Source: Burkholderia pyrrocinia (GTDB lineage Bacteria > Pseudomonadota > Gammaproteobacteria > Burkholderiales > Burkholderiaceae). From it: a stretch of 64,000 nucleotides of DNA. Numbering within the stretch: position 1 is the stretch's first letter; each line of letters opens with the position of its first letter. The stretch is taken from NCBI RefSeq assembly GCF_003330765.1, contig NZ_CP024903.1, positions 1,364,001-1,428,000 on the forward strand. The letters run 5' to 3'. Of this stretch, positions 47,567-62,956 are shown one piece after another. Both the position numbers and the translations under genes were made by a program. The notes beneath the pieces were generated by a model. That model was given only the letters and a program-made list of their open reading frames with translations, ran no database searches and was not told the DNA's origin.

Positions 47567-48475
47567 TCACGCAAGGCATGCGCGCAGCCACGACGTGAAT
47601 GCGGTCACGAGTGGCGTTTCGGTCAGCTCATGACGCGTGACGAGATAGTACGCATGACGTGAAGGTACCGTTGCGCTGAACGGCCGCACGAGCGTGCCGT
47701 CGATCAGGTCGTCGCGCACGGACAGGCTGTCGCCGAGCGCAACGCCTTGCCCGTGCACCGCGGCTTCGACGCCGATGTGCGCGTTGCCGATTTCGAGGAT
47801 GCGGATGCCCGGCAACTTGTCGGCATTCGCTTCCGCCAGCCAGCGCATCCACGAGCCCGCATGCTCGCAGAACAGCGTGCGTCCCGCGAGATCCTGCACC
47901 TTGCGGATCGCATCGGGCCCGTTCATCAACGCCGGGCTCACGACCGGGAACAGCGCCGGATGCTCGAGCAACTCGACGTGCCGGTTGCGCCAGTTGCCTT
48001 CCCCGTAGCGAATGCAGACGTCGACGTCCGGCGAATAGATCTCGCGATCGTCGTTCGACGGAATCACTTTCAGGTGAATACCCGGATAGCGCTCGAGAAA
48101 ATCGCCGATATGCCGGGCGAGCCAGCGCGACGTCAGCGACAGCGGCGTCGACACGACGAGATCGCCGACGGCGACCGGCGAATCGAGCCTGACGGTGGCG
48201 TTCGCGATCATGTCGAACGCGGTGCCGACCGGTTCCAGCAGGGCCTCGCCTTCGGGCGTGAGCTTCACGCGGGCCTTTGATCGGACGAAAAGCGCGATAC
48301 CGAGCGTGCTTTCGAGAATGCGGATCTGGTGGCTGACTGCGCTCGCGGTCACGTGCAGTTCGTCAGCGGCGGCAGACACGCTGCCGCGCCGGGCGGCGGC
48401 TTCGAATGCGCGTAGCGGGTTCAGCGGTGGCAGGCGGTTGCGCATCGGAGGCGACGGTGCTGAGAAAAATTTCAT
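47567..48475 (-). CDS. LysR family regulator (GcvA-like) of the lyase/ABC locus
   Basis: 302 residues; a second ATG at 48445 (MRNRLPPLNPLRAF) is the more usual LysR start, giving 292. N-terminal HTH: FEAAARRGSVSAAADELHVTASAVSHQIRILE; the C-terminal domain binds the inducer. The PLNPLRAFEAAAR opening and HVTASAVSHQI are typical of the GcvA/AmpR branch. It is divergent from the argininosuccinate-lyase-family gene, with a 9-bp inverted repeat between them, so it very probably controls that operon in response to its substrate. Confidence 0.9.
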   Translation of the reverse strand: MKFFSAPSPPMRNRLPPLNPLRAFEAAARRGSVSAAADELHVTASAVSHQIRILESTLGIALFVRSKARVKLTPEGEALLEPVGTAFDMIANATVRLDSPVAVGDLVVSTPLSLTSRWLARHIGDFLERYPGIHLKVIPSNDDREIYSPDVDVCIRYGEGNWRNRHVELLEHPALFPVVSPALMNGPDAIRKVQDLAGRTLFCEHAGSWMRWLAEANADKLPGIRILEIGNAHIGVEAAVHGQGVALGDSLSVRDDLIDGTLVRPFSATVPSRHAYYLVTRHELTETPLVTAFTSWLRACLA

Positions 48476-48483
48476 TTAAGCGG

Positions 48484-48517
48484 ATTCAATTTCTCGCTAC
48501 AACAAAAAAAATTGAAT
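48484..48517. promoter_or_regulatory. Candidate LysR operator
   Basis: ATTCAATTT (48484-48492) and AAATTGAAT (48509-48517) form a perfect 9-bp inverted repeat with a 16-nt spacer in the 84-bp gap between divergent lysR and the lyase gene. Its A/T richness contrasts with flanking DNA. Confidence 0.7.
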
Positions 48518-48559
48518 GCCTACAGTGGGGGCAATCCAACCGAGTCGAGGTCGACCGCA

Positions 48560-49993
48560 ATGAGCCTTACCGAACCGATCGAACGCCTGTGGGGCGGCCG
48601 CTTCCAGTCGAAACCGTCCGACGCGCTCCTGAACCTGTCCCGCTCCGATCCGAGTTTCTTCCGCCTCGTGCCGTACGATCTGGCCGGTTCCCGCGCGCAT
48701 GCACGCGAATTGAATCGTGCCGGCATCGTGAACGACGACGAACTCGCGCAACTGCTGGCCGCGATGGACGGCATCGCGCGCGACTACGCGGCCGGCGCGA
48801 TCGCGCCGTCGCTCGCCGACGAGGACGTGCACACCTTCCTCGAGCGCGTGCTCACGCAGCGGCTGCCGGCGCTCGGCGGCAAGCTGCGCGCCGGGCGCTC
48901 GCGCAACGATCAGGCGGCGAACGACCTGCGCCTGTACCTGCGCGACAAGGCGCGCCAGCTCGTGCGCGCCGTGCTCGACCTGCAGGACGCGCTGGTCGGC
49001 CAGGCGAGCCGGCACGTGGACACGGTGACCGCCGGATTCACCCACCTGCAGCCCGCGCAGCCGATCGTGTTCGGCCATCAGTTGCTCGCGCACGCGCAGT
49101 CGCTGTATCGCGACGCCGACCGTCTGGTCGACTGGGACCGCCGCACCGCGCGCTCGCCGCTCGGCGCGGCCGCGCTCGCCGGTTCGGCGATCTGCGTGCG
49201 GCCCGAGCTGTCCGCGCAGGAGCTCGGTTACGACGCGCCGTGCGAGAACTCGATCGACGCCGTGGCCGCACGCGATCACGTTGCCGAATTCACGTTCGTC
49301 ACGAGCATGCTGGCCGTGAACCTGTCCCGCCTGTCGGAAGAAGTAATCCTGTGGACGTCGCGGCAATTCCGCTGGGTGGAACTCGACGACGGCTATGCGA
49401 CGGGCAGCTCGATCATGCCGCAGAAGAAGAATCCGGACATCGCGGAACTCACGCGCGGCAAGGCCGGGCGCCTGATCGGCAACCTGACGGGCCTGCTCGC
49501 GACGCTGAAGTCGCTGCCGCTCGCATACAACCGCGATCTCGCGGAAGATAAGATCGCCGCGTTCGATGCGATCGACACGCTCGAACTCGTGCTGCCCGCG
49601 ATGGCGGGGATGATCCGCACGATGCGCGTGAATGTCGACGAGATGCGTCGCCAGGCGCCGCTCGGCTTCACGCTCGCGACCGAGGTCGCGGACTGGCTCG
49701 CGCTGACGGGCGTGCCGTTCAGCGAAGCGCACGAGATCACCGGCGCGCTCGTGCGCGCGTGCGAGCGGGACGGTATCGAGCTGGCCGACGCGAGCGCGGA
49801 ACAGCTGCAGGCCGTCGACACGCGCCTCGCGCCGGCGGTGCGCGCGCATCTGACGCTCGACGCGGCCGTCGCCGCCCGCGGCGGTGCGGGCGGCACGTCG
49901 CCCGCGCGCGTGCGCGAGCAGATCGGCCGCCTGAGCGACGCGATCGAACGCCAGGCTGCGTGGGCGGCCGACTACCGGGGGCCGTCATGCTGA
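48560..49993 (+). CDS. Argininosuccinate lyase family C-N lyase
   Basis: 477 residues from the ATG at 48560 ([15 protein letters not shown]) behind GAGGTCGACC. All family hallmarks are intact: the [16 protein letters not shown] block, THLQPAQP with the catalytic histidine region, the mobile-loop signature [15 protein letters not shown], and [13 protein letters not shown]. The family splits argininosuccinate or related N-succinyl compounds to fumarate and an amine; EDDS lyase is a member. Being in a LysR-controlled operon with ABC transporter genes and no arginine-synthesis neighbours, this copy is probably catabolic rather than the biosynthetic ArgH (inference). It overlaps the permease gene by 7 bp. 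Confidence 0.9.
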
Positions 49994-50880
49994 GCGCATC
50001 CGATTCGCACCGTCTCGACGGCGCACCCGGGCCGGCCAGCGCCGCGGCAGACGATACCGCCGGCCTCGTGCGCGTGCGCCGGCGCTACTGGGGCCGCTAT
50101 GTCGCGTCGATCGCGATCATTGCCGCGATCGCCTATGTGGCCGCCGCGTTCGCACGCGGACAGATCGAATGGCGCGTCGTCGGCCAGTTCCTGACCGCGC
50201 ACTCGATCCTGACCGGGCTCGGCAACACGATCGTGATGACCGTCCTCGCGATGACGCTCGGTGTCGTGCTCGGCGTCGTCACCGCGGTGATGCGGCTGTC
50301 GTCGAACCCGGTGCTCGGCGCGATGGCACAGGGCTACATCTGGCTGTTCCGCGGTACGCCGGTGATCCTGCAGCTGCTGCTGTGGTTCAACCTCGCGCTG
50401 GTGTTTCCGACGCTCGGCATCCCGGGTATCGCCGAATTCCGGACCGTCGACGTGATGACGCCGTTCCTCGCGGCGGTGCTCGGACTCGGCATCAACCAGG
50501 GCGCGTATACGTCGGAAGTCGTGCGCGCGGGGCTGCTGTCGGTCGACACCGGCCAGTACGAGGCCGCGAAATCGATCGGCATGGCGCGCCTGCAGGCGCT
50601 GCGCCGGATCATCCTGCCGCAGGCGATGCGCGTGATCGTGCCGCCGATCGGCAACGAACTGATCGGCATGGTCAAGCTGACGTCGCTCGCGAGCGTCGTT
50701 CAGTACGCGGAGATGCTGCACAACGCGCAGAACATCTACTACGCGAACGCCCGCGTGATCGAGTTGCTGATCGTCGCCGGCATCTGGTATCTCGCGATCG
50801 TCACCGTGCTGTCGCTCGCGCAGGCGCGCGTCGAACGGCGCTTCGCGCGCGGCGCAGGCCGGGCGGCGGGCCGCAAATGA
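49987..50880 (+). CDS. ABC transporter permease, polar amino acid type
   Basis: 297 residues from the ATG at 49987, which lies inside the end of the lyase gene. After a roughly 35-residue cytoplasmic N-terminus come about five membrane segments and the EAA-like motif [22 protein letters not shown] that contacts the ATPase. Single HisM/GltJ-type permease, so it probably works as a homodimer with the ATPase encoded next (4-bp ATGA overlap) and the binding protein at 53088. Confidence 0.92.
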
Positions 50881-51680
50881 ACGACACGACCCTCAACCTT
50901 CGGGAGAACGTCATGACGAACGCGGTCGTTCGCGCGGTCGACGTGCGCAAGTCGTACGGCGATTTCCAGGCGCTGCATGGCATCACGCTCGACGTCACGC
51001 AGGGCGAAGTGCTGTGCATCATCGGGCCGTCGGGCTCGGGCAAGAGCACGTTCCTGCGCTGCATCAACCAGCTCGAGACGATCAGCGCCGGCGCGCTGTG
51101 GGTCAACGGCGAACTGGCCGGCTACCGGCGCGCCGGCAACCGGCTCCACGAACTGTCGGAGCGCCAGGTCGCGCGCCAGCGACTGGCGACGAGCATGGTG
51201 TTCCAGCGCTTCAACCTGTTTCCGCACAAGACCGCGCTCGAGAACGTGATCGAAGGCCCCGTGCAGGTGCTCAAGCGCCGCCGCGTGCAAGCGGAGGAGG
51301 ACGCGCGCGCGCTGCTCGCGCGCGTCGGGCTCGCGCACAAGTGCGACGCGTTTCCGGTCGAGCTGTCGGGCGGCCAGCAGCAGCGCGTCGCGATCGCGCG
51401 GGCGCTCGCGATGCAGCCGCAACTGATCCTGTTCGACGAGCCGACATCGGCGCTTGACCCGGAACTCGTCGGTGAAGTGCTGGCCGTGATGCGCGATCTC
51501 GCGAAGAGCGGGATGACGATGATCGTCGTCACGCATGAACTCGGGTTCGCGCGCGAGGTGGCCGACCGCGTCGTGTTCATGGACGGCGGCCGGATCGTCG
51601 AGAGCGGGCCGCCCGACCAGGTGCTGTCCGCGCCGACGCACGCGCGCACGCGCGACTTCATCTCCGCCGTGATTGCTTGA
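50877..51680 (+). CDS. ABC transporter ATPase, polar amino acid type
   Basis: 267 residues from the ATG at 50877, overlapping the permease stop. Walker [10 protein letters not shown]-loop [12 protein letters not shown], signature LSGGQQQR, Walker B LILFDEP with DPELVGEV, and switch histidine in VTHELGFA are all intact. A second ATG 12 codons downstream ([13 protein letters not shown]) is possible but the overlap favours the first. It powers import of the compound handled by the lyase. Its transcript originally ran on to the binding protein at 53088; a TnpB element now lies between. Confidence 0.93.
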
Positions 51681-51777
51681 ACGGGCCGGGCGCCCCGACC
51701 CGCAGCGCCCGATCGATCGAGCCGTCAACGAGACCGGCGCAGCACCCCATTACTCCACCACGACAAGGCGACATCCC

Positions 51778-51900
51778 TTGACTGCTCCTCTCCCTAAAGG
51801 AAGAAGATTCCCACTTCGCAGAATGCAACCCGACATCATCTCAAAGAGACATGGGACTTACACTTTCTCCATGGGCTGACACCGCCAGCCCGGCGGCCAA
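51778..51900 (-). ncRNA. Candidate omega-RNA (reRNA) of the TnpB element
   Basis: In TnpB elements the guide RNA is made from the 3' end of tnpB and the following right-end sequence, with the guide taken from DNA just outside. The segment after the tnpB stop has the conserved GGGAATCTTCTTCC...TTTAGGGAGAGG type end that forms the final scaffold hairpin. The guide would be the flanking bases below 51778, reading GGGATGTCGCCTTGTCG on the minus strand. Boundaries are inferred from family knowledge. Confidence 0.4.
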
Positions 51901-52974
51901 CACATTGCACGCAGCGTTGATATCGCGGTCGTGGATCGCCCCGCATTCAGGGCAGTCCCATGCACGGACATTCAACGGCATCCTGGCGACGGTATGCCCG
52001 CAGTCACTGCATCGTTTGCTGGAGGGATACCAGCGGTCGATGCCGATCAGCTTGCGCCCATACCACTGCGCTTTGTACTCAAGTTGTCGAATGAACTCCG
52101 ACCAGCTTGCGTCGCCGATCGACTTCGCGAGCTTTCGATTCTTCTGCATGTGGCTGACGGACAGGCTTTCGATGGCGATCACTTGGTTTTCGTTGATCAA
52201 CCGGGTCGACAGTTTGTGCAGGAAGTCCCTGCGGGCATCTGCCGTCCTGGCATGCATGCGTGCGACCTTGAGCCTGGCCTTCCGACGATTGGCCGAGCCC
52301 TTTTGCTTCTTCGCCAGCCGCCGTTGCAACTTGGCGAGCTTCGCCTCGTTCTTGCGGAACGTATTCGGCGCGGCAATCTTCTCGCCAGTCGAAAGAATGG
52401 CGAAATGTGTCAACCCGAGATCGATGCCGATCTTTCCGTCGGCGACCGGGCGTGCGTTCACGACGTCGTCGCACAGCATCGATACGTGGTATCGGCCGGC
52501 TGGGTCTTTCGACACCGTGACGGTTGTCACCTTCGCAAATTTCGGGATCGTGCGCGCCCAGCGGATCGCCAGCGGCTCAGCCATCTTTGCCAGCTTGAGG
52601 GTCACGCCGTCCCACTTGAAAGCGCTCGCGGTGTATTCGGCCGACTGCGGGCCATCCTTGCGCCTGAAGTTCGGGTACTTCGCCCGCTTCGCAAAGAAGT
52701 TGGCGAACGCACTTTGCAAATGGCATAGCGCCTGCTGCACCCGCACCGAACTGACTTCGTTCAGCCACGCGTACCCGTCAGTCTTCTTGAGCGCCGTCAA
52801 CGCCGCGGAGGTCTCGTGATACCCCATGCGTTCCTGCCGCTGATGCCACGCCTCCGTGCGTTGGCGCAGCATTTGGTTATATACAAAGCGCGCACATCCA
52901 AACGTCCAGGCAAGCATCACAGCCTGCTCGGGCGTCGGGTAGAACCGGAATCGGTAGGCACGTTTGACATCCAT
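51841..52974 (-). CDS. tnpB: TnpB RNA-guided nuclease (OrfB family transposon protein)
   Basis: 377 residues from the ATG at 52974 (MDVKRAYRFRFYPTPEQ); an ATG three codons upstream is possible. The RuvC triad is intact: Asp185 in IGIDLGLTHFA, Glu269 in AIESLSVSHM and Asp351 in HDRDINAA. The zinc knuckle has Cys322, Cys325, Cys341 and Cys344. The N-terminal RNA-binding helix-turn-helix is complete. It is predicted to cut DNA matching its guide beside a short target motif and thereby keep the element at its site. No frameshift or stop is seen, so it should be active. Confidence 0.93.
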   Translation of the reverse strand: MDVKRAYRFRFYPTPEQAVMLAWTFGCARFVYNQMLRQRTEAWHQRQERMGYHETSAALTALKKTDGYAWLNEVSSVRVQQALCHLQSAFANFFAKRAKYPNFRRKDGPQSAEYTASAFKWDGVTLKLAKMAEPLAIRWARTIPKFAKVTTVTVSKDPAGRYHVSMLCDDVVNARPVADGKIGIDLGLTHFAILSTGEKIAAPNTFRKNEAKLAKLQRRLAKKQKGSANRRKARLKVARMHARTADARRDFLHKLSTRLINENQVIAIESLSVSHMQKNRKLAKSIGDASWSEFIRQLEYKAQWYGRKLIGIDRWYPSSKRCSDCGHTVARMPLNVRAWDCPECGAIHDRDINAACNVLAAGLAVSAHGESVSPMSL

Positions 52975-53039
52975 GCCTCGCACCCTACCATCGGCACGTA
53001 CGTGGCCGTCAACAGGAGCACGGAAGCAACGTCAAAACC

Positions 53040-53083
53040 GTCTCCTTTCCTCTCCGGCCTGAAGGCCGGGGTTTCTCGGAGAC
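53040..53083 (+). promoter_or_regulatory. Two-tier hairpin over the binding-protein ribosome binding site
   Basis: Inner stem CCGGCCT (53054-53060) with AGGCCGG (53063-53069); outer stem GTCTCC (53040-53045) with GGAGAC (53078-53083). GGAGAC is also the Shine-Dalgarno of the gene starting at 53088. The folded RNA would hide it. The inner palindrome probably belongs to the transposon end. Confidence 0.6.
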
Positions 53084-53087
53084 ACTG

Positions 53088-53921
53088 ATGAAAGCATCCG
53101 TCCTGACCCGCACGCTGGCCGCTGTCGCATTCGGCGCACTCGCGCTTCATGCATCGTTTGCCGTCGCACAATCCGCGAGCGCGAAACGCACGCTGAACGT
53201 CGCGATCGTGCCGAACTATCCGCCGTTCGAATACAAGGACCCGGCGACCGACAAGCTCGCGGGCTTCGACGTCGATCTCGGCGAGGCGCTCGCCGCGAAG
53301 ATGGGCGCGAAACTGAACTGGGTCGAAACGAGCTTCGACCAGATGATGAGTGCGGTCGCGACGCAACGCGTCGACATGATCCTGTCCGGCATGACCGACC
53401 TGCCGACGCGCCGCGATGCGGTGACGTTCGTCGACTACATCGAGACAGGCCCGCAGTTCTACACGCTGAAGGCGCGCGCCGGCGAGTTCGCGCAGATGGG
53501 CGCGCTGTGCGGCAAGCGCGTCGGGTCGAGCCGACGCACGTCGTTCCCGGACAACACGACCGCGTGGAGCGCGGAGAATTGCGTGAAGGCCGGCAAGCCG
53601 GCGATCGTCGTGGTCGGCACCGACGGCTCGTCGGACGCGCGGATGCAGTTGCGCCAGAACCGTATCGACGCGGCGGTGCAGGGCGGCGAGACGCTGCCGT
53701 ACCAGAACACCCTCGAGCAGAACGCGTATGCGCCGGTCGGCAAGCCGTTCCTGTCGCAATACACGGGGATCGGCGTCGCGAAGAGCAACACCGCGCTGAG
53801 CAGCGCGCTGACGACGGCGCTCAACCAGATGATCGCCGACGGCTCGTATCACAAGATTCTCGCGAAATGGGGGCTGCAGGAGCACGCGGTGGCGAAGGCG
53901 ATGGTCAACGGCACGCACTGA
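53088..53921 (+). CDS. ABC transporter substrate-binding protein (polar amino acid type)
   Basis: 277 residues; Sec signal peptide to about FAVAQ-SA. The family-3 binding fold is shown by LNVAIVPNYPPFEYKD, LAGFDVDLGEALAAKMGAKLNWVETSFDQMMSAV and RVDMILSGMTDLPTRR. Periplasmic ligand capture for the permease and ATPase at 49987-51680. It starts just after the TnpB element with GGAGACACTG before ATG. It is followed after 7 bp by the first NodB-fold gene, so the downstream genes share its transcript. Confidence 0.9.
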   Translation: MKASVLTRTLAAVAFGALALHASFAVAQSASAKRTLNVAIVPNYPPFEYKDPATDKLAGFDVDLGEALAAKMGAKLNWVETSFDQMMSAVATQRVDMILSGMTDLPTRRDAVTFVDYIETGPQFYTLKARAGEFAQMGALCGKRVGSSRRTSFPDNTTAWSAENCVKAGKPAIVVVGTDGSSDARMQLRQNRIDAAVQGGETLPYQNTLEQNAYAPVGKPFLSQYTGIGVAKSNTALSSALTTALNQMIADGSYHKILAKWGLQEHAVAKAMVNGTH

Positions 53922-53928
53922 GCGCGCG

Positions 53929-54801
53929 ATGGCGGATCTCGCTCCCCGCTGGCCGGACGCGAAGCGCGCGTGCGTCGCGCTCGCGTTCGATCTCGACGGC
54001 CCGACCGGCGACGCGATGCTGAACGGGTCGATCTGGCGCAACCCCGCGTATTTCACGCTCGGCAGCTACGGGCCGTGGCGCGCGCTCGGCCGGTTGCTCG
54101 ACATGCTCGCAGCGTTCGACCTGCCGGCGACGTTCTTCGTGCCCGCATGGGTCGCGCAGACCTGGCCCGCGCAATGCGCGGCGATTGTCGAGCGCGGCCA
54201 CGAGATCGGCTATCACGGCTACCGGCACGAAGCGTTCTGGACGCTCGAGCCCGACCGGCAGCGCGAGATCATGGCGCAGTCGGCCGATGTCTTCGCGCGC
54301 ATGCTCGGCGTGCGGCCGGTCGGGTTCCGCACGCCGTCCGGCGACTGGAGCGAGGCGACGGTGGCCGTGCTGCGCGAAGCGGGCGTGCGCTATTCGAGCT
54401 CGATGCGCGGCGACGACCGGCCCTACCTGCTGCGCGGCGAGGACGGCGAGCCGCCGCTTGTCGAGATTCCCGGCCGCTGGGAGACCGACGACTACGCGTC
54501 GCTCGCGTATCACCGCAACCCCGACTACCCGGCCGGGCTCGACCGGATTGCCGGTTACGACGCGACGCTCGACAACTGGACGCGCGAATTCGACGGCGTA
54601 TACCGCGAAGGGTTGTGCCTGACGACGCTGCTGCATCCGAAGGTCTGCGGCAAGCCGGGGCGCATCGCGCTGCTCGAGGCGTGGCTCGGTCACATGTGCG
54701 CGCAGGATGGCGTATGGTTCGCCCGCTGCCGCGAAGTGGCCGACTGGTGGCTCGCGCAGGCCATGCGAGACGCGGAATCAACGCAACGGAGCAGCATGTG
54801 A
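53929..54801 (+). CDS. Polysaccharide deacetylase (NodB-fold) family hydrolase, metal site intact
   Basis: 290 residues. NodB motifs are present: motif 1 as ALAFDLDGP with Asp21 and Asp23, motif 2 as HGYRH with metal ligands His96 and His100, and motif 3 as GFRTPSGDWS. The late LLHPKVCG histidine also fits. No signal peptide, so it is cytoplasmic and unlikely to act on cell-wall polysaccharide. Cytoplasmic members of this family hydrolyse cyclic amides or N-acyl groups (for example allantoinase PuuE). It overlaps a paralogue lacking the histidines by 4 bp; the two may form a complex. Confidence 0.87.
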   Translation: MADLAPRWPDAKRACVALAFDLDGPTGDAMLNGSIWRNPAYFTLGSYGPWRALGRLLDMLAAFDLPATFFVPAWVAQTWPAQCAAIVERGHEIGYHGYRHEAFWTLEPDRQREIMAQSADVFARMLGVRPVGFRTPSGDWSEATVAVLREAGVRYSSSMRGDDRPYLLRGEDGEPPLVEIPGRWETDDYASLAYHRNPDYPAGLDRIAGYDATLDNWTREFDGVYREGLCLTTLLHPKVCGKPGRIALLEAWLGHMCAQDGVWFARCREVADWWLAQAMRDAESTQRSSM

Positions 54802-55706
54802 AGACAACTCCTTCATGGCCAGGCGGTGCGCGATACGCGGTCGCGATCACGGTCGACTTCAACGACATTCATGGCATCCAGACGCGCGAGCCGCGCATCG
54901 TCGGCCGCGAGAAGTCGCTATCGGTGTGGCGTTACGGCGCGACGCGCGGCGTCGATCGGCTGCTTGCGGCATTCGACGCATTCGGCGTGCCGACGAGCTG
55001 GTTCGTGCCCGGCGTCGTCGCCGAAACACATGGGGCCGCGGTGCGCACGATTGCGGCGGCCGGCCACGAGTTGGGCGTGAGCGGCTATCGCTGCGAGGAC
55101 TTCGATGCGTTGCCGCTCGCCGCGCAGGTCGACGCGTGCCGCGCCGGGCGCGCGGCGCTCGCGGATGCGATCGGCCGCGACGTGGAAGGCTTTCGCTCGT
55201 TCACCGGCAACTGGGCCGACGGTTTCGCGGATTGTCTCGTCGCGGAAGGCTTCACGTGGTCGTCATCGTGGCGCGGTGATGATCTGCCGTACGTGCATCC
55301 GCGCGGTGACGTCGGTGCGAACGGCGCGCGGCTCGTCGAACTGCCGCTGCACGATGAACTCGACGACGAACCGTACTTCGCGTTCAACCTGTCGCCGCCC
55401 GTGCCGGCCGGCCAGCCGCGCATCGCGGCGTACCGCGACGTGCTCGACAACTGGCGGCGCGACGTCGACGGGTTTCGACGCTTCGGGCTGTGCTGCGTGC
55501 TGCGCCTGCATCCCGAGATCATCGGCACGGCAGGGCGGATCGATCTGCTGCGCGCGTTGCTCGCGCACCTGCGCGGCACGGGCGACGCGTGGTTCGCGAC
55601 GGGGCGCGACATCGCGCACTGGTGGCGTGCGCAGGCACCCGTCAATGCCCCGGGCCATCCGGTCGACGTGTTCGCGCGCTGCGTGGCGGAGGAGTCGGCG
55701 CGATGA
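54798..55706 (+). CDS. NodB-fold paralogue that has lost its metal ligands
   Basis: 302 residues from a GTG at 54798 overlapping the previous stop (GTGA). It aligns along its length with the preceding protein. But motif 2 is GHELGVSGYRCE instead of GHEIGYHGYRHE, so both metal-binding histidines are Ser95 and Cys99; in motif 1 the second Asp is Asn22 (ITVDFND). The fold-shaping residues and late LRLHPEIIG block remain. It is therefore likely a non-catalytic partner or an enzyme with a changed mechanism. It overlaps the MmgE/PrpD gene by ATGA. Confidence 0.85.
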   Translation: MKTTPSWPGGARYAVAITVDFNDIHGIQTREPRIVGREKSLSVWRYGATRGVDRLLAAFDAFGVPTSWFVPGVVAETHGAAVRTIAAAGHELGVSGYRCEDFDALPLAAQVDACRAGRAALADAIGRDVEGFRSFTGNWADGFADCLVAEGFTWSSSWRGDDLPYVHPRGDVGANGARLVELPLHDELDDEPYFAFNLSPPVPAGQPRIAAYRDVLDNWRRDVDGFRRFGLCCVLRLHPEIIGTAGRIDLLRALLAHLRGTGDAWFATGRDIAHWWRAQAPVNAPGHPVDVFARCVAEESAR

Positions 55707-57136
55707 CGATGGATACGGAAGCGCGCGCAACGCGGCTCGCGGCGTTCGTCGCGCGGACGCCCGCCGACGCATTGCCGGACGACGTCGTTGCGAAGGCCAA
55801 GCGTCATGTGCTCGACACGTTCGGTGCCGCGCTGGCGGGCGTGTCGGCCGTCGAGACGCGCAGTGCCCGTGCGCTGACGGGCGCCGTCTCGCATGGCGGC
55901 GCATCGCTATGGGGCACGCGACGGACCGCCGGTGCGCGCGATGCGGCGTTCGTCAACGGAATCGCCGCGCACGCGCTCGAGCTCGACGATTCCGGCGGCT
56001 GCGATCATTCGGGCGCGGTCGTGCTGCCGGCCGTGCTCGCCGCGCTGTCGTGCGCGGGCCATCCCGTGACGGGCCGCGAATGCGTGGCGGCGATCGGGCT
56101 CGGCTACGACGTCGGCCGGCGCGTGCTCGAGGCGGCAGGCGGCTACTCGGTTCACAACGGTGCGGGCTGGCATTCGACGCTCAGTTGCGGCGTGTTCGGT
56201 GCGGCGGCCGCGAGCGCACGCGTGCTCGGGCTCGACGCCACGCGCACGCGCGACGCGCTGGGCCATGCGGCGAGTTTCGCGGGCGGCCTGTGGGGCTTCA
56301 TCCACGACGGATCGCAGACCAAGCGGTTGCACGCCGGGCGCGCGGCGGAAGGCGGCGTGCTCGCGGCGCTGCTTGCGCGAGAAGGCGTGAGCGGCCCCGC
56401 CCGCGTGTTCGACGACGTGTGGGGCGGCTTTTTCAACACATTCGCCGCGCAATCGCATGCGTCCGACGCATTGACCGACGGCCTCGGCGCGCATTGGAAG
56501 CTGATGCGCTGCTCGATCAAGCCGCACGCATCGTGCCGCAGCGCACATGCGGCCGTCGATGCGGCGCTGCAGCTCGCGGACGGTCGCACTTTCGAGGCCG
56601 GCGAGATCGAGCGGGTGGTCGTGCGCGCGAGCGCGTTCGTTGCCCGGATGTGCGGCGGTCGGGACCTGTCGACGCTGTCGTCCGCGCAGATGAGCCTGCC
56701 GTACGCGGTTGCGGCGGCGCTCGCGTTCGGCGACACGGGGATCGGCGTTTATCGCGCGGAGCGGCGCACCGATCCGCGCGTGACCGCGCTGCTCGCGCGC
56801 ATCGCGGTCGACGTCGATCCGGCGCTCGGCGATCTCGACGAGCCGACGGTGATCCTGCATCGCGCGGATGGCGGGCGGGAATCGCGTCACGTGCCGATCG
56901 CGCTCGGCGATCCGCGCAATCCGCTGTCGGACGCGGCGCTGTTGGCGAAATATCGTGCGCTGGCGGGCATGGCGCTCGATAGTGCGCATGTCGATGCGCT
57001 GAGCGACGTGTGCCTGTCGCTGGACCGACAAGCGGACGCGCGCGTGCTGAACGAACGGCTCGCAGGTGATGCCGAAAGTCGCTCGATAGAGGTCGAAGGG
57101 CAGGCGCCCGCGCGATCGAATTCCAAATTTGTCTAG
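55703..57136 (+). CDS. MmgE/PrpD family protein
   Basis: 477 residues from the ATG at 55703, coupled to the previous gene by a 4-bp overlap. Typical family features: an all-helical N-terminal domain with VLDTFGAALAGVSAVET and FVNGIAAHALELDDSG, then GWHSTLSCGVFGAAAASARVLGLD and the IKPHASCRSAHAAVDA block. The family includes 2-methylcitrate dehydratase, cis-aconitate decarboxylase and iminodisuccinate epimerase. Next to an argininosuccinate-lyase-family enzyme, the epimerase-type role on an N-carboxyalkyl amino acid is the most attractive hypothesis, but dehydratase or decarboxylase activity is possible. Confidence 0.87.
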   Translation: MTMDTEARATRLAAFVARTPADALPDDVVAKAKRHVLDTFGAALAGVSAVETRSARALTGAVSHGGASLWGTRRTAGARDAAFVNGIAAHALELDDSGGCDHSGAVVLPAVLAALSCAGHPVTGRECVAAIGLGYDVGRRVLEAAGGYSVHNGAGWHSTLSCGVFGAAAASARVLGLDATRTRDALGHAASFAGGLWGFIHDGSQTKRLHAGRAAEGGVLAALLAREGVSGPARVFDDVWGGFFNTFAAQSHASDALTDGLGAHWKLMRCSIKPHASCRSAHAAVDAALQLADGRTFEAGEIERVVVRASAFVARMCGGRDLSTLSSAQMSLPYAVAAALAFGDTGIGVYRAERRTDPRVTALLARIAVDVDPALGDLDEPTVILHRADGGRESRHVPIALGDPRNPLSDAALLAKYRALAGMALDSAHVDALSDVCLSLDRQADARVLNERLAGDAESRSIEVEGQAPARSNSKFV

Positions 57137-57288: not shown

Positions 57289-57300
57289 TTGTATAGACAA
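57289..57300. promoter_or_regulatory. Possible GntR/HutC operator (site 2)
   Basis: TTGTATAGACAA is a near-palindrome of the HutC type (TTGT-N4-ACAA) about 60 bp before the second transporter operon. The GntR/HutC regulator at the end of that operon is the natural candidate to bind it. T-rich DNA with a run of eight T lies just upstream (57244-57251). Confidence 0.55.
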
Positions 57301-57360: not shown

Positions 57361-58221
57361 GTGAACGGCAAGCGCATGAATTGGGCTATCAGGACGATCG
57401 GCGTCATCGCGGCGGCTGCGGCAACGCTCGCCGCGCCGGTGCAGGCGAAGGAATGGAAGACGGTGACGGTGGCGCTCGAAGGCGGTTACGCGCCGTGGAA
57501 CCTCACGCTGCCGGGCGGCAAGCTCGGCGGCTTCGAACCGGAACTGCTCGCGAATGTATGCGACCGGATCAAGGTGCAGTGCAACATGGTCGCGCAGGAC
57601 TGGGACGGGATGATTCCTGGCCTGCAGGCCGGCAAGTTCGATGTCCTGATGGATGCGATCTCGATCACGCCGGAGCGCGAGAAGATCCTGCTGTTCTCGC
57701 GCCCGTATGCGGCCACGCCCGCGACGTTCGCCGTTACCGATACGAAGATCCTGCCCAAGGCCGGGTCCGGTGCGCCGATGGTCAAGTTGACCGGCGACGC
57801 GAACGCCGACAAGCCGACCGTCGACACGCTGCGCAAGCAGTTGAAGGGCAAGACGATCGGCATCCAGTCGGGCACCGTCTATACGAAATTCATCAACGAC
57901 AGCTTCAAGGACATCGCGTCGATCCGCGTGTACAAGACGTCGCCGGAACGCGATCTCGACCTCGTCGCCGGGCGCATCGACGCTTCGTTCGACGACGTCA
58001 CGTACTACGCGGCGAACACGGCGAAGAAGGAAACCGCGTCGATCGTGCTCGCGGGCCCGAAGCTCGGCGGCCCGATCTGGGGGCCGGGCGAAGGCCTCGC
58101 GTTCCGCAAGCAGGATGCCGACCTGAAGACGAAGTTCGATGCGGCGATCGGCGCCGCGCTCGCGGACGGTACCGTGAAGAAGCTCGCCGACAAGTGGTTC
58201 AAGACCGACGTCACGCCGTAA
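57361..58221 (+). CDS. ABC transporter substrate-binding protein (opine/basic amino acid type)
   Basis: 286 residues from a GTG at 57361 with an excellent AAGGAGAAATCTC site; the frame is open further upstream but that start is unsupported. Signal peptide ends near APVQAKE. The binding-protein fold is clear: VALEGGYAPWNLTLPGGKLGGFEPELLANVCDR, WDGMIPGLQAGKFDVLMDAISITPEREKIL. It looks like the NocT/OccT/ArgT group that binds opines and basic amino acids. It feeds the HisQ/HisM-type permease pair encoded next. A 107-bp gap with GC-rich pairing potential may raise its expression over the permeases. Confidence 0.9.
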   Translation: MNGKRMNWAIRTIGVIAAAAATLAAPVQAKEWKTVTVALEGGYAPWNLTLPGGKLGGFEPELLANVCDRIKVQCNMVAQDWDGMIPGLQAGKFDVLMDAISITPEREKILLFSRPYAATPATFAVTDTKILPKAGSGAPMVKLTGDANADKPTVDTLRKQLKGKTIGIQSGTVYTKFINDSFKDIASIRVYKTSPERDLDLVAGRIDASFDDVTYYAANTAKKETASIVLAGPKLGGPIWGPGEGLAFRKQDADLKTKFDAAIGAALADGTVKKLADKWFKTDVTP

Positions 58222-59063: not shown

Positions 59064-59810
59064 ATGTCCATCGATTTCGCCTTCCTCATCGACACGCTGC
59101 GCCAGCTGCTCGCGGCCGTGCCGACCACGCTCGGCCTGTTCTTCGCGTCGCTCGTGCTCGGCGGCCTGCTGTCGCTCGTGATCGTCACGATGCGGGTGTC
59201 GCCGCACTGGCTGCCGAACCGCTTCGCACGTGCATACATCCTCGTGTTTCGCGGCTCGCCGCTGCTGATCCAGATGTTCCTCGTGTACTACGGGCTCGGC
59301 CAGTTCGGCGTGATCCGCGAGAGCTTCATCTGGCCGCTTCTGCGTGAACCGTACGTGTGCGCGGTGTTGTCGCTCGCGCTGTGCACGGCCGGCTATACGG
59401 CCGAGATCCTGCGCGGCGGGCTGATGGCCGTTCCGGTCGGGCAGATCGAGGCCGGCTATTCGATCGGCCTGTCGGGCTTCGCGCTGCTTCGGCGCGTGAT
59501 CGGCCCGATCGCGTTGCGCCAGTGCCTGCCCGCGTATTCGACCGAAGCCGTGCTGCTCGTCAAGTCGACCGCGCTGGCCAGCCTCGTCACGGTGTGGGAA
59601 GTGACGGGCGTCGCACAGCAGATCATCCAGCAGACTTACCGGACGACCGAGGTGTTCGTGTGCGCGGCCCTGATCTACCTGGGCCTGAACTTCATCGTCG
59701 TGCGCGTGCTCGGCGCGCTCGAATGGCGGCTGTCGGGCCACCTGCGCGCGCCGAAGCCGACCGGCGCGCCCGGCGCGGCGGCGCGCAATGCCCGGCGCGT
59801 CGCGTCCTGA
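59064..59810 (+). CDS. ABC transporter permease, HisM/OccM type
   Basis: 248 residues, starting 12 bp after the first permease behind ACGGAGAGCACGC. Membrane segments as expected and an EAA-like block IEAGYSIGLSGFALLRRVIGPIA. Pairs with the HisQ-type permease to make a heterodimeric channel. It ends with an Ala/Arg-rich cytoplasmic tail. Confidence 0.92.
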   Translation: MSIDFAFLIDTLRQLLAAVPTTLGLFFASLVLGGLLSLVIVTMRVSPHWLPNRFARAYILVFRGSPLLIQMFLVYYGLGQFGVIRESFIWPLLREPYVCAVLSLALCTAGYTAEILRGGLMAVPVGQIEAGYSIGLSGFALLRRVIGPIALRQCLPAYSTEAVLLVKSTALASLVTVWEVTGVAQQIIQQTYRTTEVFVCAALIYLGLNFIVVRVLGALEWRLSGHLRAPKPTGAPGAAARNARRVAS

Positions 59811-59837: not shown

Positions 59838-60629
59838 ATGAACACCGCTGCTCCCGTTGCCCTGTCGGTCAGGAACATCCACAAGTCGTTCGGCGATCAC
59901 CATGTGCTGAAGGGCATTTCGCTCGATGCGCACGAGGGCGACGTCATCTCGATCCTCGGCGCGAGCGGCTCGGGCAAGAGCACCTTTCTGCGCTGCCTGA
60001 ACCTGCTCGAGACGCCTGACGACGGCTCCGTCGCGCTCGCCGGCGAGGAACTGAAGATGAAGCGCGCGCGCGACGGCAAGCTGCATCCGGGCGACCAGCG
60101 GCAGGTCGACCGGATCCGCTCGCAACTCGGGATGGTGTTCCAGAACTTCAACTTGTGGTCGCACATGACGGTGCTCGACAACCTCGTCGAAGGCCCGCTG
60201 CGCGTTCAGAAGCGCAGCCGCGCGGAAGCGGTCGAGGAAGCCGAGGCGCTGCTCGCGCGCGTCGGCCTCGCGGACAAGCGCGGTTACTATCCGGCACACC
60301 TGTCGGGCGGCCAGCAGCAGCGCGTCGCGATCGCCCGCGCGCTCGCGATGCATCCGAAGGTCATGCTGTTCGACGAACCGACCTCGGCGCTCGATCCGGA
60401 ACTGGTCGGCGAGGTGCTGCGCGTGATGCGCTCGCTCGCGGAAGAAGGGCGCACGATGCTGGTCGTCACGCACGAGATGGGTTTCGCGCGGCACGTGTCG
60501 AATCGCGTGATGTTCCTGCATCAGGGCGAGGTCGATGCGGACGGCACGCCCGGCGATCTGTTCGCCGGCCAGTGCTCCGAGCGTTTCCGGCAGTTCGTGT
60601 CGAGTCATCACGACCGCACCGCGAACTGA
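59838..60629 (+). CDS. ABC transporter ATPase, HisP/OccP type
   Basis: 263 residues behind CCAGGAGAATCCG. Walker [10 protein letters not shown]-loop [14 protein letters not shown] (the NLWSHMT form is typical of HisP), signature LSGGQQQR, Walker B VMLFDEP, switch VTHEMGFA. Completes the four-component opine/basic-amino-acid-type importer. The downstream ammonia-lyase-family gene begins 7 bp later, so the transporter and that enzyme are tightly coupled. Confidence 0.94.
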
Positions 60630-60636
60630 GGCCGCC

Positions 60637-62130
60637 ATGACCGTATTCCGTTCGGCACAGCCGCTCGGCTGGCGGCAAATCGCGGCGGTGGCGGCCGGCG
60701 AGCCGCTCGCGCTGTCCGACGATGCGCGCATGCGCGTCGTCGCGGCGCGCGAGCTCGTCGATGAAATCGTCGCACGCGGCATCCGCGCCTATGGCGTCAA
60801 TACGGGCGTCGGCGCGCTGTGCGACGTGATCGTGTCGCCGGAGCAGCAGAGCACGCTGTCGCGCAACATCCTGATGAGCCACGCGGTCGGCGTGGGCGCA
60901 CCGCTCGGCGCGGCGGAAACGCGCGCGATCGTCGCGGCGGCGATCAACAACTACGCGCACGGGCATTCGGGCGTGCGCGCCGACGTCGTCGAGCAGTTGG
61001 TCGCGCTGCTCGAGCACGATTGCCTGCCGGAGGTGCCGGCGCACGGCTCGGTCGGTTATTTGACCCACATGGCGCACGTCGCGCTCGTCTGCATCGGTCA
61101 TGGCCATGCGCGCCATCGCGGCGAGCGTATTCGCGGCGACGACGCGCTGCGTCGCATCGGCCGTGAGCCGCTGGTGCTCGGCGCGAAAGAAGGGCTGAGC
61201 CTCGTCAACGGCACGCCGTGTGTCACCGGGCTGGCCGCACTCGCGCTGGCCCGCGCGGAACGGCTGCTCGACTGGGCCGACTGGGTCGCGGCAATGAGTT
61301 TCGAGAATCTCGGCGGGCAGCTCGCCGCATTCGACCCGGCATCGCTCGCGTTGCGGATTTCGCCCGGCATCGGGCACGTCGGCGCGCGTCTGCGTGCGCT
61401 GCTCGCCGACAGCGGAATGCTCGACGCGGCGAGCGGCCGGCATACGCAGGATCCGCTCAGTCTGCGCACGGTACCGCACGTGCACGGCGCGGCGCGCGAT
61501 GTGTTCGACGTGACGGCGGAGGTGGTCGATCGCGAACTGGCGTCGGTCACCGACAATCCGATCGTGGCCGGCACGCGCGACGCACCGGTCGTCCATTCGC
61601 AGGCGCATGCGGTCGGCGCGGGCATCGCGCTTGCAATGGACAGCCTCGCGACGGCGATGGCCCAGGTCGCGGCGATCGCCGAGCGGCGTCTCGACCGGCT
61701 CGTCAATCCGCTCGTGAGCAGGCTGCCGGCGTTTCTCGCGGCGCCGGGCGGCACCTGTTCGGGCTTCATGATCGCGCAGTACACGGCTGTCGCGCTCGTC
61801 GCGCAGAACCAGCGGCTCGCGGGGCCGGCGAGCCTCGACGGCGGCATCACGTCGGGCTTGCAGGAAGATCATCTGTGCCATGCGACGCCGGCGGCGCTGA
61901 AGGCGCTCGACATCATCGAGAATGCGACGCGCGTGCTGGCGATCGAACTGCTGGCCGCCGCGCAGGCGTACGATCTGCAGGCGGGCGATGCGTCGCGGGC
62001 CGCGCCCACCGATGCGCTGTGGCGATATGTGCGCGAACGCGTGCCGGCCTACCAGGACGACAGGCCGCTGGCGGACGACATCGCGATCGCCACCGGCATT
62101 GTCGCGGGCGTGCCGCCGCCCGTGAAGTGA
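60637..62130 (+). CDS. Aromatic/histidine ammonia-lyase family protein lacking the MIO-forming segment
   Basis: 497 residues, ATG at 60637. HAL-family residues are retained: Tyr52 in AYGVNTGVG, the NGTPCVTG block, QDPLSLRTVPHVHGA, VTDNPIV and LQEDHLCH. Where HAL has GSVGASGDLAPLAHM, this protein reads GSVG-Y-LTHM (residues 137-145): seven residues including the Ala-Ser-Gly that cyclises to the MIO electrophile are replaced by one tyrosine. It cannot make MIO, so a normal ammonia-lyase reaction is unlikely; a MIO-independent lyase, isomerase or binding role is possible. It directly follows the importer genes and precedes a GntR/HutC regulator. Confidence 0.88.
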   Translation: MTVFRSAQPLGWRQIAAVAAGEPLALSDDARMRVVAARELVDEIVARGIRAYGVNTGVGALCDVIVSPEQQSTLSRNILMSHAVGVGAPLGAAETRAIVAAAINNYAHGHSGVRADVVEQLVALLEHDCLPEVPAHGSVGYLTHMAHVALVCIGHGHARHRGERIRGDDALRRIGREPLVLGAKEGLSLVNGTPCVTGLAALALARAERLLDWADWVAAMSFENLGGQLAAFDPASLALRISPGIGHVGARLRALLADSGMLDAASGRHTQDPLSLRTVPHVHGAARDVFDVTAEVVDRELASVTDNPIVAGTRDAPVVHSQAHAVGAGIALAMDSLATAMAQVAAIAERRLDRLVNPLVSRLPAFLAAPGGTCSGFMIAQYTAVALVAQNQRLAGPASLDGGITSGLQEDHLCHATPAALKALDIIENATRVLAIELLAAAQAYDLQAGDASRAAPTDALWRYVRERVPAYQDDRPLADDIAIATGIVAGVPPPVK

Positions 62131-62200: not shown

Positions 62201-62956
62201 ATGAACGAAACGGAACAACAACTTGCCGGCCGGCCGGCGAGTGCACCGGGCGACGGTGTGCCGGCGCGCGCGTTGCCGGCCTACCAGCAGATCAAGCGCT
62301 ACGTCGTCGAGCGGATCGCGAACGGCGACTGGAAGCCCGGCGGCGCGATTCCGACCGAAGCAGAACTGGTCAAGGAGTTCGGCGTCGCGCGGATGACGGT
62401 GTCGCGCGCGCTGCGCGAGCTGACCGCCGAGCGCGTACTGACCCGCATCCAGGGCGCCGGTACGTTCGTCGAACGGCGGCATTACGAATCGACGGTGCTG
62501 GAAATCCGCAACATCGCGGACGAGATTGCGGAGCGCGGCCATCGGCACAGCGCGCGCGTGTTGCTGATCGAAAGCAGCGACGATCAGGAGGCGATCGAGG
62601 CGCTCGGGCTCCGTTCCGGGCCCGTGTTCCATTCGCGCATCGTGCATTACGAGGAAGGGGAACCGATCCAGTTTGAGGATCGGTACGTCAATCCGGCGTT
62701 GTTTCCCGCGTATCTGGAACAGGATTTCACGGTCGAGACGCCGAATCATTACATGGTGAGGCTTGCGCCGATCCAGCGCGCCGAGTTCCGGATCTATGCG
62801 CAGAAGCCCGACGCGCAGGTGCGCCGGCACCTCGTGATGGAAATCGGCGAGCCGTGCCTGTTGCTCAGGCGCCGCACGTGGGTCGGTGAGGATGTCGCGA
62901 CGTCGGTGCGGTTGTGGCATCCGGCGTCGCGGTTTCATTTGGCGGGGAAGGTGTAG
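62201..62956 (+). CDS. GntR family regulator, HutC subfamily
   Basis: 251 residues. N-terminal winged helix: YQQIKRYVVERIANGDWKPGGAIPTEAELVKEFGVARMTVSRALREL, the GntR hallmark. C-terminal UTRA ligand-binding domain (FHSRIVHYEEGEPIQFEDRYVNPALFPAYLEQDF). HutC relatives repress histidine or other amine catabolism and are released by urocanate-like ligands. It lies 70 bp after the HAL-like gene and probably controls the operon from 57361, where a TTGT-N4-ACAA site is found. Confidence 0.92.
   Translation: MNETEQQLAGRPASAPGDGVPARALPAYQQIKRYVVERIANGDWKPGGAIPTEAELVKEFGVARMTVSRALRELTAERVLTRIQGAGTFVERRHYESTVLEIRNIADEIAERGHRHSARVLLIESSDDQEAIEALGLRSGPVFHSRIVHYEEGEPIQFEDRYVNPALFPAYLEQDFTVETPNHYMVRLAPIQRAEFRIYAQKPDAQVRRHLVMEIGEPCLLLRRRTWVGEDVATSVRLWHPASRFHLAGKV

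Follow-up and report, generated by a model that had tools for sequence, protein, structure and literature searches.

A histidase paralogue without the MIO precursor

The stretch of DNA analysed here, 64,000 nucleotides of Burkholderia pyrrocinia (contig NZ_CP024903.1, positions 1,364,001 to 1,428,000; hereafter the window), carries a gene for a relative of histidine ammonia-lyase (HutH) that lacks the residues from which the electrophile 4-methylideneimidazol-5-one (MIO) is made. We refer to this protein and its MIO-less counterparts as HALx. The gene and its altered site are:

60637–62130, plus strand: HALx, MIO-less histidase paralogue, 497 aa, PF00221, from ATG to stop
61045–61059, plus strand: GSVGY (residues 137–141), equivalent to GSVG-ASGD of HutH, where Tyr141 replaces the MIO precursor

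A profile search places the PF00221 domain at residues 12–467 (497 bits), and the protein does not reach the cut-off of the TIGR01225 hutH model (453.5 bits vs 539.15). In the alignment, GSVG-ASGD-LAPLAHM of HutH pairs with GSVG-Y-LTHMAHV of HALx, a single Tyr standing for ASGD, three residues of which cyclise to MIO. The original prediction, made from the letters of this DNA, had noticed that Ala-Ser-Gly was absent and had read the stretch, exactly as it stands, as GSVGYLTHM; the alignment bears this out. Its figure of 18 bases (six residues) lost came from matching the wrong His-Met, the real net loss being 9 bases (three residues). The same replacement of ASGD by Tyr is found in 100% (rounded) of 103 distinct members.

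One genome per species was scanned, which yielded at least 513 relatives; the 80 best of them were read, and all 80 carry GS[VA]GYL[ST]H at the same place. This conservation rules out the local sequencing error that had been named as a possible explanation and, together with a low dN/dS between the window protein and six relatives (0.09–0.23), excludes decay, as had been supposed. Carriers include Burkholderia, Paraburkholderia, Caballeronia, Trinickia, Rhizobium, Sinorhizobium and Labrys, among others. When 398 genomes of the phylum were searched with a DNA pattern for the HALx motif, 34 gave matches, at 35 places in all; among the 30 of these loci that were fetched, 22 hold HALx and eight do not, the peptide falling within another protein in four of the latter (L115–L118).

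HALx proteins form a clade apart from ergothionase

We built an unrooted tree of 49 rows, composed of 47 proteins selected from 198, the window HALx and the ergothionase of Treponema denticola. The HALx proteins form one clade with 100/100 support. A joint clade of HALx and ergothionase is rejected (p-AU 4.6e-7), and MIO has therefore probably been lost in HALx separately from ergothionase; the tree being unrooted, loss rather than gain of MIO is presumed. A single clade of all 32 MIO-less rows is rejected weakly (p-AU 0.036), and the grouping of HALx with other GSVGY types has a support of 80/75 only, so that a common origin of these types is not shown by the tree. The three ergothionase rows do not form one clade themselves. 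Position 280 follows the MIO state closely: it is Tyr in 17/17 MIO-bearing rows and Leu in 29/32 MIO-less rows (Glu in two, Tyr in L084).

Most carriers of HALx also have a normal histidase in the genome. The second PF00221 protein of the window's genome, on another contig, is a HutH with GSVGASGDLAPLAHM, and a normal HutH with GSVGASGDLAPL[AS]H is present in 23 of 24 further carrier genomes. In the remaining genome, G421 (the genome of the L138 locus; 100% complete score), HALx is accompanied by hutU, BCCT, hutI, hutG and hutF genes, and no protein above the TIGR01225 cut-off was found in that genome.

Imidazole and carboxylate contacts are retained while those at the amine are replaced

Residues are numbered here as in Pseudomonas putida HutH (the printed alignment reference minus 3). 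Tyr53, Asn195, Arg283 and Glu414 are retained in 17/17 aligned HALx rows, and the whole set of HutH imidazole and carboxylate residues is kept (Tyr53, His83, Asn195, Gln277, Arg283, Met382 and Glu414). The HutH residues at the reacting amine are those that are absent: ASGD has become Tyr, Tyr280 Leu, and Phe329 Ala, or Pro in 5/17 rows. Across 103 distinct HALx and 33 HutH proteins the fixed differences are Ala142 to Tyr, loss of Ser143, Gly144 and Asp145, Pro148 to His, Tyr280 to Leu, and Val386 to Tyr. The claim that the active site is otherwise well kept thus stands for Tyr52, NGT, QDPLSLR and QED, the motifs YGVNTG (52), QDPLSLR (271) and QEDH (409) being present as described, but fails at positions 280, 329 and 386.

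This combination, imidazole and carboxylate contacts kept and the electrophile on the amine side lost, suggests that the substrate is an imidazole amino acid with an amine that can leave unactivated; a trimethylammonium group would fit. The link to histidine utilization (hut) genes, described below, makes urocanate a likely product and, consequently, hercynine a likely substrate. We infer, with somewhat better than even confidence, that HALx is a trimethylamine-lyase converting hercynine (histidine betaine; N,N,N-trimethylhistidine) to trans-urocanate and trimethylamine. In such a reaction MIO could not work and would not be needed: lacking a lone pair, a quaternary nitrogen is unable to add to it. 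With the roles that HutH active-site residues have in histidases, and in the numbering of the window protein, Tyr52 (HutH Tyr53) would take the beta proton, Arg277 and Asn191 would hold the substrate carboxylate, and Glu410, His82 and Met378 would bind the imidazole, unmodified, in the manner of HutH. The trimethylammonium group would sit in an aromatic pocket made by Tyr382 and by Tyr141, which occupies the MIO position, and would depart as neutral amine. The urocanate produced would enter the hut pathway and release the repressor HutC.

Ergothionase, the MIO-less lyase of the histidase fold with a known structure, has a trimethylammonium substrate according to the excerpted text of PMC13405746, and shows that such a group can be eliminated in this fold without MIO. 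Taken together, HALx is probably a separately evolved MIO-less lyase for which histidine betaine would be the best candidate substrate.

Gene neighbourhood and a putative HutC operator

In the window, HALx is the fifth gene of the order binding protein, two permeases, ATPase, HALx, HutC:

57289–57300, no strand: HutC-operator-like palindrome TTGTATAGACAA, upstream of the transporter-HALx operon; its right half-site is GACA, with one mismatch
57376–58221, plus strand: substrate-binding protein, SBP_bac_3 (polar amino acid ABC type), found upstream of HALx in most of the 80 loci L001–L080
58329–59051, plus strand: ABC permease, HisQ/ArtQ-like
59064–59810, plus strand: ABC permease, ArtM/HisM-like
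59838–60629, plus strand: ABC ATPase, nearest model HisP (below its cut-off), ending 7 bases ahead of HALx
62201–62956, plus strand: HutC-type GntR/UTRA repressor (TIGR02018, 284 bits, cut-off 220)

No hut enzyme gene was seen beside the window HALx; HutC is present, and the importer is not HutXWV. The operator consensus of HutC is given as TGTA-N2-TACA in the excerpt of PMC12977541. Ahead of the transporter gene, 51/73 loci have an operator-like TTGTN4ACAA, against 33/1600 random stretches drawn from the same 80 loci (the other seven loci, without such a transporter gene on the plus strand, were excluded from the count).

Neighbours were counted in 97 distinct loci, left after duplicate copies had been removed from a set of 103 loci. 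HutC, scored as a tblastn match (2/81 below 40% identity), is found in 81 of them, HutU, HutI and HutF in 22 each, and HutG in 20; at least one hut enzyme gene lies within 9 kb of HALx in 28. The importer is of the polar-amino-acid ABC type in 80 loci, OpuAC-type (glycine-betaine) HutXWV in nine and BCCT in two, none being seen in six. Seven loci have no hut gene. In some loci HALx stands among hut enzyme genes: in L053 (Caballeronia) HALx is followed by hutU, hutD, hutI, hutF and hutG, L133 reads hutD, hutU, NCS1, hutXWV, HALx, hutH, hutI, hutG, and L138 and L139 read hutU, BCCT, HALx, hutI, hutG. The 11 loci with transporters of quaternary-amine types count in favour of a hercynine lyase, as do the hut genes and operator-like palindromes around HALx and the hut cluster of G421, a genome in which no histidase passes the model cut-off. 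A further point in favour comes from the 16 genomes of one family (f15) in the DNA-pattern scan: the OpuAC protein HutX (at least 66% identity) is present in 9/9 with HALx and 0/7 others, kinship being uncorrected.

Several observations weigh against hercynine as the substrate, and the neighbour evidence for it is mixed. The HutC-type regulator stands without a hut enzyme gene in 62/97 loci, and the seven loci mentioned above have neither. The prevailing polar-amino-acid importer, which is also that of the window, could carry histidine. The BCCT protein next to HALx deviates from the BetP signature (WTMYDWSIWIAY vs WTIFYWAWWISW) and falls below the NCBIfam betaine cut-off, and in G466, one of the nine genomes with both genes, HutX lies ~270 kb away from HALx. 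When histidine is the nitrogen source, a hutH2 mutant of Sinorhizobium meliloti reportedly grows ~30% less, which would hint at a part for the gene in using histidine. The Tyr141/Tyr382 amine pocket is a proposal, and the structure model was that of a monomer. Finally, HutXWV takes part in histidine uptake according to the excerpt of PMC8871633.

Alternative explanations

The first alternative, an unlikely one, is that HALx does release trimethylamine, but from ergothioneine or one of its oxidised derivatives, e.g. ergothioneine sulfonate. The fold, the absence of MIO and Leu280 are common to HALx and ergothionase, rhizobia carry HALx, and the excerpted part of PMC13405746 cites a bacterial pathway for ergothioneine sulfonate, attributed to Agrobacterium radiobacter. 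However, HALx has Asn, Met and Tyr in 17/17 rows at the positions where the ergothionase type has Ser195, Gly382 and Lys386; these residues and the rejected joint clade exclude that HALx is ergothionase itself, and both also speak against the wider ergothioneine reading. Moreover, of 150 Burkholderiaceae genomes the three that have a thiourocanate hydratase above cut-off carry a PF00221 gene of another class ~1.5 kb from it, with GSIGEADITILSH in the two that were read, and the window's genome is without a thiourocanate hydratase above cut-off (best NF058530 match 689 bits, cut-off 930). Elimination of trimethylamine or another amine from some other N-substituted histidine or aromatic betaine strikes us as rather improbable. 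The hut link only suggests a product or inducer near urocanate, and more than one betaine may serve as substrate in this fold, to judge from the weakly supported sister proteins in which ASGD is likewise replaced by Y and from further MIO-less classes of PF00221, a few of them close to genes of OpuAC type; against this, HALx retains the HutH imidazole-binding set, hut enzyme genes and HutC recur nearby in the proportions given above, and a poor leaving group, e.g. a secondary amine, could not do without activation.

Two further explanations would keep HALx within histidine metabolism proper. That it is an inactive or regulatory histidase paralogue, for instance a subunit altering HutH, would account for the missing essential electrophile, but it is quite improbable in view of the low dN/dS and the kept catalytic Tyr, Arg and Glu; in addition, the HutH gene of the window's genome is on a different contig, and G421 has HALx without HutH. 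That HALx is instead a histidine ammonia-lyase working without MIO, or through argininosuccinate lyase-like chemistry, we judge very improbable, despite the hut gene context, the absence of another histidase from that same genome and the histidine ammonia-lyase annotation of the three plasmid-borne copies checked. A normal HutH is kept in 23/24 carriers, and the original suggestion of a mechanism closer to argininosuccinate lyase found no support: GSSxM[PI]x[KQ], the signature of the argininosuccinate lyase/fumarase superfamily, is absent from HALx, and the fold is far from that of fumarases. Replacement of the serine of Ala-Ser-Gly in a phenylalanine ammonia-lyase leads to practically total loss of activity in the excerpt of PMC3903478.

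Relation to known systems and implications

Compared with HutH (P. putida, 1b8f), which has ASGD, Tyr280 and Phe329, HALx has Tyr, Leu and Ala/Pro. Ergothionase (T. denticola 6s7j; the Burkholderiaceae type encoded near thiourocanate hydratase) resembles HALx in having the histidase fold without Ala-Ser-Gly, in Leu280, and in keeping Tyr53, Arg283 and Glu414. It differs in its clade, in Ser195, Gly382, Lys386 and Ile413, and in its triad site, SSIGEGDI, where one residue has been lost (ASGD to E-[AG]D) vs three in HALx.

We take HutH2 of S. meliloti to be a close counterpart of HALx. On pSymB the order is hutC-hutF-ABC (glycine betaine type)-HALx, with the motif GSVGYLTH, and the protein is annotated as histidine ammonia-lyase. 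HutH1 of Pseudomonas fluorescens SBW25 is likened to HALx by gene order: the place between hutXWV and hutH, in the sense of the excerpt of PMC8871633, is filled by HALx in L133, L134 and L144. That excerpt calls HutH1 a histidase and says nothing of the MIO precursor being absent or of a function as betaine lyase. The window HALx differs from the HutH1/HutH2 group in the ABC importer that adjoins it. Note that the Pseudomonas-like MIO-less relative at L133:8320–9825 scores 540.4 bits, just above the TIGR01225 cut-off, and the model would thus name a MIO-less protein histidine ammonia-lyase. PA5093 is a histidase-like gene. In the excerpt of PMC12772324 it is labelled hutG, and the two designations conflict.

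Hercynine accompanies ergothioneine from soil fungi and actinobacteria. We know of no bacterial enzyme that degrades it, and none appears among the literature matches listed, which are a part of the whole. We put forward tentatively, as a little short of an even chance, that HALx opens a bacterial hercynine route not described so far, which would explain the spare hutH1/hutH2 of Pseudomonas and rhizobia, and that the MIO state of PF00221 has changed on the tree at least twice and in two ways (ASGD to Y, ASGD to xxD), each giving aromatic betaine lyases whose quaternary amine cannot use MIO. If HALx acts on hercynine, the latter would join the compounds from which microbes release trimethylamine, and a protein described as a histidase, though unneeded for growth on histidine, would gain a testable function. 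HALx also offers a natural test of the conditions under which an enzyme can do without an electrophile of its own making, and is a case in which a curated model and public records can give MIO-less proteins the name of histidine ammonia-lyase.

Further MIO-less PF00221 proteins and the flanking block

Two proteins share the ASGD to Y change of HALx (L084:5164–6726 and L189:4274–5824) and form its weakly supported sister group; one lies by a binding protein resembling HALx's neighbour, the other by ABC genes that are betaine-type by eye. Their motifs are GSVGYLAP (L084) and GSVGYLIT (L189). A further MIO-less class, with GS[IL]GAADLA and Lys at the ergothionase position, is found in L138, L189, L191, L193 and L194. 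Its member at L138:3510–5045 adjoins an OpuAC-type binding protein (Pfam) and an ornithine-cyclodeaminase-like protein, and that at L189:13683–15182 adjoins an OpuAC-type binding protein, recognised by eye only; these proteins are possibly lyases for another aromatic betaine. Other MIO-less motifs are GSIGCADIG (L192, L197), GSMGCADIG (L201), GSIGAGDL (L195) and GT[LV]GEGDL (L190, L198). An ergothionase-like protein (GSMGEADITILSH) at L088:5215–6924, whose N-terminus is signal-peptide-like by eye, is encoded downstream of genes resembling hutI, hutF and hutC.

Upstream in the window, positions 47567–57136 form a separate block with the look of a cluster for the catabolism of N-substituted amino acids (LysR, ArgH-like lyase, ABC importer, binding protein, two PuuE/NodB-like hydrolases and MmgE/PrpD). 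It was rejected as part of the HALx system for want of conservation, since, within 8-kb flanks, most of it is seen in only 1/80 loci, L003, where it lies downstream of HutC. Between the ATPase and binding-protein genes of the block lies a TnpB/IS605-type open reading frame, named from its sequence (51841–52983, minus strand).
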